64,000 nucleotides of DNA from Reyranella sp. CPCC 100927 (GTDB lineage: Bacteria > Pseudomonadota > Alphaproteobacteria > Reyranellales > Reyranellaceae), in NCBI RefSeq assembly GCF_007859315.1, contig NZ_VOHA01000009.1, positions 124,001-188,000 on the forward strand. Reading direction: 5' to 3'. Within the stretch, counting starts at the first letter, position 1. Every line of letters begins with the position of its first letter. The position numbers were made by a program, and so were the translations under genes. The notes under the pieces are model-generated. The model ran no database searches. It was not told where the DNA came from and saw only the letters and a program-made list of their open reading frames with translations. Below are positions 56,314-63,518 of this stretch, piece after piece.

Positions 56314-58521
56314 TCAGCGCCGTCCGCTGCGTCGCGCCGGTTTGCCGCGGGAGCCCGACCCGGTCTTCACGCCGCGGAAGGTGCGCGAGTTCTGCATCTT
56401 GCCGTATGGAGTCGGCGCGGTGCCGCCGGCGGCTCCCGCCGTCGAGCGCGGCGCGACGGCGCCGGGCGGCAGGCCGAGGTCGTTCTCCTCCAGGCGGCGG
56501 ATCTCGTCGCGCAGGCGCGCGGCCTCCTCGAACTCGAGGTTGCCGGCTGCCTCGCGCATGCGCTTCTCCAGCTCGGCAATGTGAGTTTGCAGGTTGTGGC
56601 CGATCAGCTGCACGTCGCCCGAGACGCCGGTGTCCACCGTGTAGTGGTCGCGCTCGGCGACCGACTGCAGCACCTCGTTGATGTTCTTGCGGATCGAAGC
56701 CGGTGTGATGCCGTGCTCTTCGTTGTAGGCCTGCTGCTTGGCGCGCCGCCGCTCGGTCTCGCCGATGGCGTATTTCAGCGCGTCGGTCATGCGGTCGGCG
56801 TACAGCAGCACGCGGCCGTCGACGTTGCGGGCGGCGCGGCCGATGGTTTGCACCAGCGACGTGGGCGAGCGCAGGAAGCCTTCCTTGTCGGCGTCGAGGA
56901 TGGCGACCAGGGCGCATTCCGGGATGTCCAGGCCCTCGCGCAGCAGGTTGATGCCGATCAGCACGTCGAAAGCACCCAGCCGCAGGTCGCGGATGATCTC
57001 GATGCGCTCCAAGGTGTCGATGTCCGAATGCAGGTAGCGGCAGCGGATGCCGGCCTCGTGCATGTATTCGGTGAGGTCTTCGGCCATGCGCTTGGTCAGC
57101 ACCGTGACCAGCACGCGCTCGCCGCGCTTGGCGCACTCGCGGCACTCGGCCAGCAGGTCGTCGACCTGCTTCTCGACCGGCCGGATGATGGTGACCGGAT
57201 CGATCAGGCCGGTGGGGCGGATCACCTGCTCGACGAAGACGCCGCCGGTGCGCTCCATTTCCCACGGCCCCGGCGTTGCCGACACGAACATCGACAGCGG
57301 CCGCATCGCGTCCCACTCCTCGAACTTCAGCGGCCGGTTGTCGATGCACGAGGGCAGGCGGAAGCCGTACTCGGCCAGCACGCTCTTGCGGTTGAAGTCG
57401 CCGCGGAACATGCCGCCGATCTGCGGCACGGTGACGTGGCTTTCGTCGGCGATCAGCAGCGAGCCCTCGGGGAAGTACTCGAACAGCGACGGCGGCGGCT
57501 CGCCCGGCTTGCGGCCGGTGAGGTAGCGCGAATAGTTCTCGATGCCGGCGCACGAGCCCGTGGTCTCCAGCATCTCGATGTCGAACTGCGTGCGCTGCGC
57601 CAGCCGCTCGGCTTCCAGCAGCCGGCCGGCGCGGGTGTATTCGTCCAGGCGCTTCTTCAGGTCCTCGCGGATCTTCTGGATGGCGCCGGTCATCGTCGGC
57701 TTGGGCGTGACGTAGTGACTGTTGGCGTAGACCACGATGTCCTGCAGGCTGGTGGTCTTCTCGCCGGTCAGCGGATCGAACTCGGCGATGGCGTCGATCT
57801 CGTCGTCGAACAGCGAGATGCGCCAGGCGCGGTCCTCGTAGTGGGCCGGGAAGATCTCGATCGTGTCGCCGCGGGCGCGGAAGGTGCCGCGGCTGAAGGC
57901 CTGGTCGTTGCGCTTGTACTGGATCTCGACCAGGCGGCGCAGCAGCTCGGCGCGGTCGACCTTGTCGCCGACGCTGAGCCGGAACGTCATCGCCTGATAG
58001 TTCTCCAGCGGCCCGATGCCGTAGATGCACGACACCGAGGCCACGATCACCACGTCGTTGCGTTCCATCAGGGCGCGCGTGGCGGCGTGGCGCAGCCGGT
58101 CGATCTGTTCGTTGATCGACGAATCCTTCTCGATATACGTATCGCTGCGCGGCACGTACGCCTCGGGCTGGTAGTAGTCGTAGTAGGAGACGAAGTACTC
58201 GACGGCGTTCTCGGGGAAGAAGCTCTTCATCTCGCCGTAGAGCTGGGCTGCCAGCGTCTTGTTGGGCGCCATGATCAGGGTCGGGCGGTTCACCGACGCG
58301 ATCACGTTGGCCATGGTGAAGGTCTTGCCCGAGCCGGTGACGCCCAGCAGCACCTGGTCGGTCTCGCCCTGCTGGACGCCGGCGATGAGTTGTCGGATCG
58401 CCTCGGGCTGGTCGCCGGCCGGCTTGTAGTCGGACACGACCTTGAACGGCATACCACCGTCGATGGGCGGCCGCCGCTGCAGCCAGGGCATGGAAAGGCG
58501 TGCAACGTGGGTATCGGGCAT
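56314..58521 (-). CDS. uvrB: Excinuclease ABC subunit B
   Basis: 735 residues. Walker [20 protein letters not shown], the beta-hairpin region [21 protein letters not shown], helicase motifs ([43 protein letters not shown]) and a C-terminal UVR motif ([19 protein letters not shown]). It loads UvrA/UvrC at DNA lesions. ATG 58521 (MPDTHVARL); earlier in-frame codons extend into the divergent promoter. An antisense frame of 811 codons is a GC artefact. Confidence 0.95.
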
Positions 58522-58640
58522 GGACGCTATATGGCGCCAGCCCCGCGACGGCGCCAACCCGATTCGATTTCGTCGGTTCGACAAGCCTGGGGGAATCATA
58601 TAAAAGTGAGTGGTCGCCGCAAAAATTATTGACATCGCGC

Positions 58641-58677
58641 TTGAAAAGTATAAAAGCCTTACTTTATGATCTTCATG
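58641..58677 (+). promoter_or_regulatory. Sigma-70-like promoter of the TnpB-like/pspA operon
   Basis: TTGAAA (58641-58646) and TATGAT (58665-58670) with an 18-bp spacer, in the only AT-rich stretch nearby. The expected start of transcription coincides with the in-frame GTG at 58677, so a leaderless message is possible. TATAAAAG occurs twice 50 bases apart (58599 and 58649). Confidence 0.45.
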
Positions 58678-59834
58678 TGGTCAGACGACGAAAGACAGCA
58701 CCTGGCGGTTTCATCCGCCTGCGACTGGAGCCCGATGCAGCAGCCATCGCGGCGCTGGGGCAGCTCGTCGATGCCTACGCGGGGCTGGCCCAGTGGCTGG
58801 ACGTCACCATCCCGGCCGACCACTCAGCCGATCACGTCGTCCTGCACCGGAACTTCTACGAGCGGGCGCGGCAGCAAAGCGGTTTGCCGGCGCAGCTCAC
58901 GACCCTGGCGCTGCGCGATTGGGCCGCGCGCCGCCGCGGGTTGGCGGTCGAAGGGGTCCCGCTCGACGAGCGGCTCTATTCGGTTCGCGGCATTGCGACT
59001 GTGTCGATTGCGACGCTCGACGGGCGGGTTGGTGTGCCCTTCGCCGTCGCAGGTTACGGGCCGGTCTGGCCCGGCGGCGCGCCAGCGCGTCTGGTGCGCC
59101 AGCCCAGTGGTTGGGAGTTGAGGATCGAGTCGGATCGCGACATCGCCCGCTTGGGGCAGGAGGAACGGACCATGGCTACCGAGACTGTTGTGACCCGTAT
59201 TGGCCGCGTCATCGCCGGCATGACCCACGCCGCCATCAGCGCCGCCGAGGACGTCAATCCTGAAGCCGTCATGGAGCAGGCGATCCGCGAGATCGACGGC
59301 GCCGCCGACGAGGTGCGCGGCGAGATGGGCAAGGCGATGGCCGAGAAGGCCCGGCTGGACCTGCGCCGCAAGGAGCTGGAGCGCGAGCGCGGCGAGCTCG
59401 ACGAGAACGTGAAGCTTGCCGTCGGCAAGGGCCGCGATGATCTCGCCGAGGCCGGCATCGATCGCCAGCTCGATATCGAGGCGCAGCTGGGCGTGCTCGC
59501 CCGCCTGGCCGTCGACGCCGACGAGAAGATCGGCCAGCTCAACCAGACGCTGGATGCCGTACGCGCCAGCCGGCGCGAGGCCGAGACGCGGCTGGCCGAT
59601 CTCAAGCGCACGCGCCAGACGTCGGTCAGCGGTGCCGGTGCGCCCGAGGGCGAGACGCGGGTGTCGAAGGCGACTGGCAAGGTCGAGCGGGCGCAGGCCG
59701 CGATCGAACGCCTGACCGGCGTTCCGTCGGGCACGCCGGCCGGCGACCAGAAGTCGCTGGACGATCTCAACGAACTGGCCCGCAAGCATGCCGTGGCCGA
59801 ACGGCTGGCGCGCTTGAAAGCGGGACAGGGCTGA
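58677..59834 (+). CDS. In-frame read-through ORF: TnpB-like N-terminal domain joined to PspA
   Basis: From GTG 58677 an open frame runs about 165 codons and continues without a stop into pspA. The first part resembles the N-terminal region of TnpB/IS605 OrfB-type proteins: [20 protein letters not shown], then [33 protein letters not shown] and [20 protein letters not shown]. The RuvC nuclease part that should follow is absent. Third positions are GC-rich, so the region is coding. It may make a fusion of about 385 residues, or a 5' coding region followed by independent internal initiation of PspA. The TnpB link is by pattern only. Confidence 0.5.
59172..59834 (+). CDS. pspA: Phage shock protein A (PspA/IM30 family)
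   Basis: 220 residues starting at ATG 59172, eight bases after a perfect AGGAGG (59158-59163). Almost entirely coiled coil, with [16 protein letters not shown] and [20 protein letters not shown] at the N-terminus. PspA binds and protects stressed inner membranes and forms ESCRT-III-like assemblies. It is followed by YqiJ- and YqiK-like genes, a known PspA-flotillin association. It is also the C-terminal part of the longer open frame described separately. Confidence 0.88.
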   Translation: MATETVVTRIGRVIAGMTHAAISAAEDVNPEAVMEQAIREIDGAADEVRGEMGKAMAEKARLDLRRKELERERGELDENVKLAVGKGRDDLAEAGIDRQLDIEAQLGVLARLAVDADEKIGQLNQTLDAVRASRREAETRLADLKRTRQTSVSGAGAPEGETRVSKATGKVERAQAAIERLTGVPSGTPAGDQKSLDDLNELARKHAVAERLARLKAGQG

Positions 59835-59853
59835 TGTCATCCTGGGTGCGTCG

Positions 59854-60600
59854 ATGCTGGACTTCTTCACCCACCCGGACGTCGCACCGTTCTCGATCGC
59901 GGCACTGGCCCTGTTCGGCCTGCTGCTGATCGAACTGGTGACCCTGCTGGCCGGCAAGCCGCTGTCGGCGTTGCTGGACCACGCGGTCGGACACGACGGC
60001 GTCCACCTTGACCACGGGCACGTCGAGATCCATGGCGGGACGGCGCTGGACCATGCGGTCGATCACGGCGCGCAGGTCGCCAAGCCGGACGGCCAGCAAC
60101 AAGGCATGTTCGGGACGGCACTCGACTGGCTGAACGCCGGTCGCGTGCCGCTGCTGGTCTTGATCATCGCGCTGCTGGCCGCCTTCGCCGGCCTGGGCAT
60201 GGTGCTGCAGACGGTGATCAGCATCGCCGGCTTCTACATTCCGGGCTGGCTGGCGGTCCTCATCGTGATCGTGCCGGCGTTCTGGTGCACACGCCACCTG
60301 TCGCGTCTGGTGGCCTACGTCGTGCCGCGCGACGAGAGCTACGCCACCAGCGGCACCGATTTCATCGGCCTGGTGGGCGAGGTCACCGTCGGGCCCGTGA
60401 AGCGCGGCGTCGTCGCCCGCGCCCGCATCCGCGATCGTCACGGCAACACCCACTTTCCGCGGGTCGAGCCGGCCGATCCGGAACAGGTCATTCCAGCCGG
60501 GACATCGGTCCTGGTGATCGAGGTTCGGGCCGGCGGCGCGCTTGCCGTCACGACCGCCGACTCGCGGCTGACGGACGGTCTTGAGCCCAAGACCGGCTGA
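59854..60600 (+). CDS. yqiJ: YqiJ-like membrane protein with OB-fold (DUF1449)
   Basis: 248 residues: an N-terminal helix (about 10-32), a His/Gly-rich linker, two central helices (about 97-145) and a soluble C-terminal OB-fold (GLVGEVTVGPVKRGVVARAR). This is the layout of YqiJ, the membrane partner of the flotillin YqiK. It starts 19 bases after pspA and precedes the flotillin gene. Confidence 0.8.
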   Translation: MLDFFTHPDVAPFSIAALALFGLLLIELVTLLAGKPLSALLDHAVGHDGVHLDHGHVEIHGGTALDHAVDHGAQVAKPDGQQQGMFGTALDWLNAGRVPLLVLIIALLAAFAGLGMVLQTVISIAGFYIPGWLAVLIVIVPAFWCTRHLSRLVAYVVPRDESYATSGTDFIGLVGEVTVGPVKRGVVARARIRDRHGNTHFPRVEPADPEQVIPAGTSVLVIEVRAGGALAVTTADSRLTDGLEPKTG

Positions 60601-60771
60601 CTGGCTGAGGCGGGTCAGTGCGGATCAGGTGTAAAGCGCAGTGAGGGTCGGCGGCAGCCGTGACGGCTGGCGCCAGGCGTTGATCCTTCGCTCGGGGTAG
60701 TGGGGCGTCATCGCGGTCGTCAGGAACTCACGCCGGTGCGCACCGCGCGCCGGTCACAGGAGGGGTGGGAC

Positions 60772-62517
60772 ATGGAGAAGCTGTTGCAATTGGCCGTACC
60801 GGCCATCATTGGCCTGGTCGCGCTGTTGGCCATCGGCCTGGTGATCGCCCGGCTCTATATTCGCGCCGAAAAGGACCGCTCCTATGTCCGCACCGGCCTG
60901 GGCGGCCAGAAGGTCGTGCTCGACGGCGGCTCCATCGTGCTACCGGTGTTCCAGAGCATCGCCTGGGTCAACCTGCAGACCCTGCGCCTGGAGGTGCGCC
61001 GCGACAACGCCGACGCCATGATCACGCGCGATCGCATGCGCGCCGATATCGGCGTCGAATTCTATGTCCGCGTCAAACCCGACGCCTCGTCGATCGCGCT
61101 GGCGGCCCAGACGCTGGGCGACCGCACCAACGATGCCGAACAGCTGCGCGCCCTGGTCGAGGCGAAATTCGTCGACGCCCTGCGCAGCGTCGCCGCCACC
61201 ATGGCGCTGGCCGAGCTGCAGGAGCAGCGCGCCACGTTCGTGCAGTCGGTGCAGACCGCCGTGGCCCGCGACCTGGAGCTGAACGGCCTGGAGCTGGAGA
61301 GCGCCTCGCTCACCAAGCTCGACCAGACCGATACCAAGTACTTCAACCCCAACAACGCCTTCGACGCCGAGGGCTTGACGGCGCTGACCAAGATCACCGA
61401 GTCGCGCCGCCAGGAGCGCAACCTCACGGTGCGCAACACCGAGGTGACCATCGCCCAGCAGGATCTCGAGGCGCGCCAGCGCACGCTTGAGATCGACCGG
61501 CAGAAGAAGGAAGCCGAGCTCTCGCAGCAGCGCGACATCGTCAACAAGACGGCCGAAACGCGTGCCGCCGCGGCGCAGAAGGAAGCCGAGGCGCGTCAGG
61601 CCGAGGAGCAGGCCCGCATCGCCGCCGAGCAGGCGATCGCCCAGCGCACCGCGACCGCCAAGCAGGCACAGGAAACCGCCGGCATCGAAGCCGACCTCGC
61701 CATCCGCCAGCGCCAGATCGAGAGCGAGCGCACGGCCGAGACCCTGGCGATCGCCAAGAAGCGCGACGTCGAGATCGCCGACCAGGATCGTGCCATCGCG
61801 GTGGCCGACAAGAGCCGGGCCGAGAGCGAGGCCCGCGCCAAGGCCGAAGAGGCCCGGGCGCTGGCCACGTCGGCGACGGAAAGCGTCGAGACCGCCAAGC
61901 AGGTCGCCATCGCCGAACGTCAGCGGCAGACGGCCGTCATCAGCGCCCGCCAGTCGGCCGAGCAGGACGCCGCCAAGGTGACCATCGCGGCCCAGGCCGA
62001 GAAGCAGGCCGCCGACGACAAGGCCACCGCGATCCGAACCGAAGCACAGGCCGAAGCCGACGCCGCCAAGATCAAGGCCGAGGCGCAGGCCAAGACCTAC
62101 GAGGTCGAGGCCGAAGGTCAGCGCAGGATCAACGAGGCGCGCAACGCCATGTCGACCGCCGTCATCGAGCTGGAGGTCACCAAGGAGCGGTTGCGCATCC
62201 TGCCGCTGGCGCTGGCCGAGGCGGTCAAGCCGCTGGAGAAGATCGGCGATGTGCGGATCATCGATATGGGCGGCGGAATGCCAGGCCACGCTGTAGGCAA
62301 CGGCGTCAACGGCACCGGTGGCAACGCCGACTCGCTGTTGAACACGCTGCTGGCTTATCGCGCCAACGCGCCGGTGATCGACAAGCTGCTGGTCGAGGCT
62401 GGCTTCGCCGGCGGCGCCAACCCAGTGCAGTCGCTGATGGCGGCGACCACGGCGACCAAGGACCAGCCCGCGGGCGCGGGCACGCCGCCGGCACCGAAAG
62501 CACCGGACAACGACTGA
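60772..62517 (+). CDS. yqiK: Flotillin-family protein (YqiK-like)
   Basis: 581 residues. One N-terminal membrane helix ([20 protein letters not shown]), a PHB/SPFH domain (about 60-210, [20 protein letters not shown]), a very long Ala/Glu/Gln coiled coil (about 230-490) and a Gly/Ala-rich tail. Flotillins scaffold membrane microdomains and work with PspA/YqiJ-type proteins. ATG 60772 follows AGGAGGGG. It is 171 bases after yqiJ and probably in the same operon. Confidence 0.88.
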
Positions 62518-62526
62518 TACGCCAGA

Positions 62527-62560
62527 GCCGGGAGCGCGCCATGCCTGGCGCGCTCCCGGC
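62527..62560 (+). terminator. 15-bp hairpin after the flotillin gene
   Basis: Perfect 15-bp arms (62527-62541 and 62546-62560) with a TGCC loop, 9 bases after the flotillin stop. No T-run follows, so it may be a processing or partial-termination site before the next gene. Confidence 0.6.
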
Positions 62561-62584
62561 CATTCCGGTTAGCGGGCAGTCGCC

Positions 62585-63433
62585 ATGGCACTGATGCTGG
62601 CAAGCGTGTTCGTCGGGTTCCTGTGGGCCATCGGCCTGCTGGCCGTGTTCGGCCGCCTGGTGGCATGGCGATGGCCACAGAAGAAGGACGACAACAAGAA
62701 GAAGGGCAAGCCGTCGGCAGGTCAGCGGGTATCCCCGGGCGCCTTCCTCGCCGCGGCCGGCGCCAGCATCGTGGGCTCGCTGCTGGTCGCCAATGTGGCG
62801 CTCGACTTCGTCGCGGTCGTCATCAACGCGCGTGCGAACCAGCCGATGTTCGTGCCCTTTGTCGTCGGTGCCGTGGGTGCGTTGGTGCTGCGTCGCGATC
62901 GCCTGCCGCCGGTCATGTACGCCGTCGGCGTGGCCGTGCGTGAGTTCCTGGCCGAGCGGGCCAAAGCCCAGGATCAGGCTGCGGCGAGACAAGATCCAAC
63001 GCCGATCGAGCGGCGGTTCCGGGAGCCTGTCTCGACCGTGATCGACGCACCGGTGACCCCCATCATCCGGACCATGCCATCGGTTCCGCCATCGCGGCCG
63101 GACCTGCCACCTGTCATGGTGGTGAGCGTGACGCCGCGTCGGGGTGAACCGACACTATCGCAGCGGCGCCGGGAAATTGTGGGCCACCTCAAGGCGCGGT
63201 CGGCTGATCTGGCGGCAAAGGTGCCGGCGCCGGCGATTGTGCCCGACATCGAGCCCACCGCCGCTGCGCTGGCGTCACAAGCCGCCGCGACCGTCGCCGA
63301 AACCAGGGCCATGCATGATGTCTGGCGGGCGGAAGCGGAAGCTTTGCGCGAGCAATGGCGCAAGGACGGCGAGGCGCTGCGCGACCAATGGCGCCGCGAT
63401 ACCCGGGTGAAGGTCGAGGACGCCAAGCAGTAG
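62585..63433 (+). CDS. Membrane protein of unknown function, last gene of the PspA-flotillin group
   Basis: 282 residues. Three hydrophobic segments (about 1-22, 48-75, 80-100), then a long polar region rich in Pro, Arg and Ala. A short tandem repeat lies near the C-terminus ([20 protein letters not shown], residues about 257-276). I do not recognise a family. It follows the flotillin gene by 67 bases with a hairpin between, so it may belong to the same stress operon. Confidence 0.7.
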
Positions 63434-63518
63434 CCACGGGTGCCGTCACGAACGGCCTCGATCATGTCACACCCAGGCTCTACTATCGCAGCCGTCCCCT
63501 CATCGGATGGATGCGCCC

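Follow-up and report, generated by a model that had tools for sequence, protein, structure and literature searches.

Why does an open frame that ends in a PspA/IM30 protein begin like a transposon nuclease, and what could such a beginning do in front of PspA? The window analysed here is the whole 64,000-nt stretch from Reyranella sp. CPCC 100927, and the frame occupies positions 58677–59834 of its forward strand. ORF reading agrees with the preliminary description that this frame runs open from GTG 58677 to 59834; its stop codon is 59832–59834, there is no internal stop, and upstream of the GTG the frame remains open as far back as 58500. The first 165 residues (58677–59171, forward strand) correspond to the recognition lobe of TnpB, which consists of the wedge and REC domains, without the RuvC nuclease or the zinc finger. 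The following 220 residues (59172–59834, forward strand) are PspA/IM30 (Pfam PF04012, E = 5.1e-12, 46.3 bits against a cut-off of 33.9). The PspA ATG at 59172 shares its frame with GTG 58677 and is preceded by AGGAGG.

The fusion is the head of a PspA-YqiJ-flotillin operon. The second gene (59854–60600, forward strand) encodes a YqiJ-like membrane protein with an OB fold (PF21001, E = 8.6e-19; PF07290, E = 2.1e-15), and the third (60772–62517, forward strand) a YqiK-like flotillin (PF15975, E = 5.8e-34; PF01145, E = 1.4e-7). This gene order bears out the promoter-proximal place in a membrane-stress operon that had been proposed. No IS200/IS605 or IS607 element surrounds the fusion in the window or in the four plasmid loci that were opened (L016–L019); the yqiJ and flotillin genes follow it instead. 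Divergent from the operon lies a gene on the minus strand (56314–58635), which we take to be UvrB-like. By eye, its true start is probably closer to 58521 or 58452 than to the 58635 of the ORF.

The assignment to TnpB is shown by fold and profile comparison. The lobe has a wedge OB barrel with inserted REC helices, as does TnpB of IS200/IS605 (NF040570; ISDra2 structures 8ex9, 8exa, 8bf8, and 8h1j). In both, REC is inserted after strand 1 and the domain order is identical, although three REC helices are predicted in the lobe and four are present in ISDra2. The lobe profile is significantly similar to four TnpBs (L020, L021, L023, and L155). All four were retrieved with the lobe as query, and only L020 (4e-7) and L155 (3e-11) were significant when first retrieved. 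Three of the four were scanned against guided_TnpB of NCBI, and all three exceed its cut-off. Seven alphaproteobacterial TnpBs, four of them ISDra2-like, were found without the lobe as query. Against these the lobe profile is collinear over the lobe and not significant, with E = 0.043 for the seven and E = 0.056 for the ISDra2-like four. Scans of Pfam, NCBIfam, and PHROGs with the single lobe sequence give no significant match to any curated family, and HTH_OrfB_IS605 of Pfam is touched by three of 38 members (best E = 0.11). When the PDB is searched by sequence with the lobe and with profiles A2 and A3, no TnpB is retrieved, and a search of viral contigs gives no relative. Fold and profile match together support the TnpB-like N-terminal region that the preliminary description had read.

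The loss of the nuclease, also claimed there, is seen where the alignment ends. The aligned part stops at residue 162 of L020, RuvC-I of L020 starts at residue 170, and in the fusion PspA follows in frame. The zinc finger PF07282 is found in neither the lobe nor the PspA part, nor elsewhere in the own genome at E ≤ 0.001. Unlike TnpB, the fusion has no RuvC, no zinc finger, no visible transposon neighbours, and no detected guide RNA, and continues into PspA.

The fusion is not a peculiarity of one genome. In a protein search of the own genome and its relatives, strong relatives (E ≤ 6.5e-47) are seen in nine of 101 genomes, the own one counted, and in each of the nine the lobe lies within a single open frame of 388–462 codons. 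Five more matches in this search (E > 0.001) were dismissed as noise. A genome scan, with 80 pattern matches listed, confirms at least 67 loci in named genomes. The two samples overlap, since L024 of the larger set is L002 of the 101-genome set and possibly six more are shared. Among the matches listed, the lobe passes into PspA in frame and without a stop at all 67 confirmed loci. The same region is therefore present in front of pspA in other Alphaproteobacteria, the group in which it had been proposed to look for it. Going by name, the carriers among these matches belong to the Alphaproteobacteria, apart from one given only as Proteobacteria; they include Rhizobium, Shinella, Bosea, Microvirga, Methylobacterium, Labrys, Bradyrhizobium, Dongia, and Vineibacter, among others. 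Plasmid records contain the fusion in 11 of the 20 listed (29 matched). Of these 11 copies, 10 are annotated as "PspA/IM30 family protein" and one as hypothetical. Genes for the YqiJ-type OB fold and flotillin lie downstream of the fusion in the four plasmid loci that were opened. Among 385 evenly drawn Alphaproteobacteria, YqiJ is seen in 25 and the lobe in six, all within the 25.

Chance is excluded as the origin of the open fused frame. Only the lack of a known function speaks for an inert remnant that is read through into PspA. Against it, 19 lobe columns are invariant across 38 diverse members, the frame is kept at 67 of 67 loci among the matches listed, and the median dN/dS of the lobe is 0.20 (range 0.04–0.99, 319 pairs; 0.11 for the PspA part of the same number of pairs). 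Conservation makes such a remnant very unlikely, to the point of being negligible, and the same dN/dS and frame retention rule out that the region is non-coding. Distances of lobe and PspA correlate with r = 0.94, a value reached by none of 2000 permutations (38 rows), which indicates that the two parts have been inherited together. The alignment used here (A3) holds 37 of the 67 loci, at less than 85% identity, and the window; row L039 starts one codon upstream of its ATG in A3 and A4.

Operons without the lobe show what stands in its place. The comparison set consists of 20 YqiJ loci without the lobe, 19 from the class draw and one from the family, and the lobe profile matches none of the 20. 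PspA adjoins YqiJ in 11 of them (L124–L127, L129–L131, L133, L134, L136, and L143), in the same order as in the fusion operon. Each of the 11 has a separate gene, about 170 codons long, in front of pspA, where the fusion operon has the lobe; L133:2195–2710 is an example, and the standalone protein of about 170 aa belongs to an unnamed family. A profile of this protein (A6) matches none of the 67 fusion loci among the matches listed. A6 was built from nine of the 11 proteins it finds, so those matches are partly circular, whereas the absence from the fusion loci is not. By eye, the N-terminus of the first-gene protein looks like a ribbon-helix-helix, and searches of Pfam and the PDB give no confirmation of this fold.

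The promoter of the fusion gene bears a candidate operator. A consensus scan predicts TTGAAA (58641–58646) and, after 18 nt, TATGAT (58665–58670) on the forward strand, with 10 of 12 positions matching. The predicted promoter (58641–58670) ends 7 nt before the GTG start codon. The lobe start has no Shine-Dalgarno sequence at −6 kcal/mol or better at any of the 67 loci among the matches listed, and two reach −5. These two observations make a leaderless mRNA probable. The operator-like palindrome AAAGTA-N9-TACTTT (58645–58665) is located between the predicted −35 and −10 and is single-copy in the own genome even with up to three mismatches. At least seven of eight arm bases are paired in 57 of 66 promoters of loci among the matches listed, against 7% of shuffles, and fewer in the other nine. 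L030 was left out of this count because its site is closer to the start, and for L056 and L076 the best palindrome in the count differs from the operator. The arms covary between clades (AAAGCAC, AAAGGAT, AAAGTA, AAGTGAC, and AAAACACC), and in nearly all loci they end about 8–12 nt upstream of the start codon. In L030, inspection by eye upstream of 3992 finds three alternating half-sites, GGTGCTTT, AAAGCACC, and GGTGCTTT, nearly touching the start codon; this array differs from the single palindrome of other loci. The sequence TTGA at the palindrome was considered as a TAM and rejected, as it belongs to the −35 box.

The palindrome is confined to the fusion gene in genome-wide searches. With up to one mismatch, AAAGCAC-N7-GTGCTTT has one site in six of seven genomes confirmed to carry the fusion, each directly upstream of the fusion, and none in three genomes without the fusion. 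The exception is G570, which is presumed to have changed arms as L089 does. The motif of the own genus (Vineibacter type), with up to three mismatches, has one site per genome in four of four, at the fusion, and is absent from three other genomes. With 0–2 sites per genome, a reversed control pattern is of similar rarity to the AAAGCAC motif, so rarity alone is weak proof and the location of the site is what counts. The fusion gene thus has a dedicated palindromic site at its own promoter, as an autoregulator would. In the 11 comparison promoters, no AAAG...CTTT palindrome with the spacing of the fusion operator is seen. Several of them carry TGNATAC repeats, which are suggestive and barely above shuffles.

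Which part of TnpB reads DNA bears on the function of the lobe. According to the accessible part of a report on TnpB (PMC10097598), the cleft between wedge and REC holds and reads the TAM duplex, and recognition of the omega-RNA scaffold falls mainly to wedge and RuvC. The half retained in the fusion is therefore the DNA reader. A single, local, clade-specific palindrome, together with another first gene where the lobe is missing, makes autoregulation by the lobe the simplest account. Judged from sequence comparison, the lobe is rather probably a guide-free DNA-binding domain through which PspA controls its own operon. It would bind the candidate palindrome between −35 and −10 and repress the promoter. 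Oligomerisation of PspA could bring about the pairing of lobes that the palindrome needs. Recruitment of PspA to a damaged membrane might then take the lobe off the operator, which would induce the operon.

The charge of the lobe speaks against DNA binding. Its median net charge is −1 (range −6 to +4, 38 rows), whereas 13 TnpB ORFs, whose starts are not curated, carry +3 to +23 in their first 175 residues. General nucleic-acid affinity is thus probably much reduced, although all 38 rows have a basic residue at lobe positions 65, 80, 99, 104, and 117. Such loss of positive charge would suit a lobe with another job, such as mediating protein interaction or assembly, where it might cap PspA oligomers or target them, while the palindrome serves an unrelated regulator encoded elsewhere. 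A helix bundle with an OB barrel could bind proteins. Distant regulators, however, often have multiple sites, while here there is a single site, at the fusion gene, in each of the 10 genomes that gave a match. The changes of the arms from clade to clade are also expected of a local, co-inherited binder, and operons without the lobe carry a separate first gene instead. This alternative is conceivable and on the whole doubtful.

Covarying arms would be expected of an RNA stem no less than of a DNA palindrome. It can be imagined that the palindrome is an RNA hairpin in a longer leader, bound by the wedge for translation control, all the more since the wedge touches omega-RNA in TnpB and the lobe start has no Shine-Dalgarno sequence. 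The arms, however, lie between the predicted −35 and −10 and in nearly all loci end about 8–12 nt before the start codon; they would therefore be upstream of the transcript. A hairpin is unlikely for this reason.

TldR proteins are nuclease-dead TnpB repressors that arose through inactivation of RuvC and kept guide RNA and DNA binding, as far as the accessible text of PMC13418256 goes. The fusion resembles them as a domesticated TnpB that is presumed to act on transcription. It differs from TldR as described there in having no RuvC, not even an inactivated one, in that no guide was found, and in the joining of the lobe to PspA. A fusion still guided by RNA, with the guide supplied in trans, would be in line with the wedge being part of the omega-RNA contact surface of TnpB (PMC10097598, accessible part). 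This is decidedly improbable. The RuvC domain is missing, and with it the part of TnpB that grips much of the omega-RNA and that holds the heteroduplex together with WED and REC. An Rfam scan of 57500–63500 (E ≤ 1) gives no relevant match around the operon; Rfam does not contain all TnpB guide RNAs. A search of the own genome for the TnpB zinc-finger family gives no match, so no resident element that could supply a guide was found.

The PspA part has a start of its own. It lies behind the Shine-Dalgarno sequence AGGAGG (59158–59163, forward strand), and a Shine-Dalgarno sequence is conserved there in the 67 other loci among the matches listed: all 67 reach at least −5 kcal/mol, and 65 of them at least −6. 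The median for this start is −9.5 kcal/mol, against −2.1 for 276 other in-frame ATGs of these loci. Two products are therefore likely, and PspA from 59172 is probably also made separately; lobe-free PspA may act as the effector. Between the fusion and the coupled small protein that had been put forward, the fusion is upheld by 67 of 67 loci among the matches listed, and the internal start that a separate product would use is conserved as well.

In the accessible part of a survey of Psp systems (PMC11237479), PspA likewise occurs within larger proteins. The partners named there are NlpC/P60 and PspAA, and that part names no TnpB-like or DNA-binding domain fused to PspA. No literature linking PspA to TnpB was found, in a search that covered few subscription journals, and within that literature the earlier claim that a TnpB-derived domain on PspA is new holds.

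TnpB acts as one molecule on a short asymmetric TAM, and the reading of a palindrome by its lobe would be new. The TnpB offshoots known to us (Cas12, Fanzor, and TldR) retain both a RuvC half and a guide RNA. In the fusion only the recognition lobe remains, attached to a membrane-stress protein. The chances seem about even that a TnpB lobe alone, without nuclease or guide RNA, is a sequence-specific protein-only binder, and that the PspA fusion combines the sensing and the regulation of membrane stress in one protein. If the lobe binds DNA unaided, TAM/PAM reading is separable from RNA guidance, and the control of this Psp operon could be explained. In that case, the Cas12 ancestor's TAM-reading part would amount to a transcription-factor fold that can be reused, and it may have been recruited on more than one occasion. 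With operators that covary across many species, the code by which the DNA is read is open to direct testing.

Lobe-only proteins are also seen elsewhere. Plasmids of Thermobacillus composti (L022:2501–3031) and Paenibacillus rhizovicinus (L186:2501–3043) encode standalone proteins of 176 and 180 aa, which are 53% identical to each other and have different neighbouring genes. No RuvC-I or zinc-finger motif is seen in the stretch downstream of either. They are possibly a second, separate recruitment of the TnpB lobe. In Allomeiothermus silvanus (L187:2001–3026), a TnpB is apparently broken: the first RuvC motif marks the end of its recognition lobe, and a piece of the zinc-finger part is found in a fragment further on.
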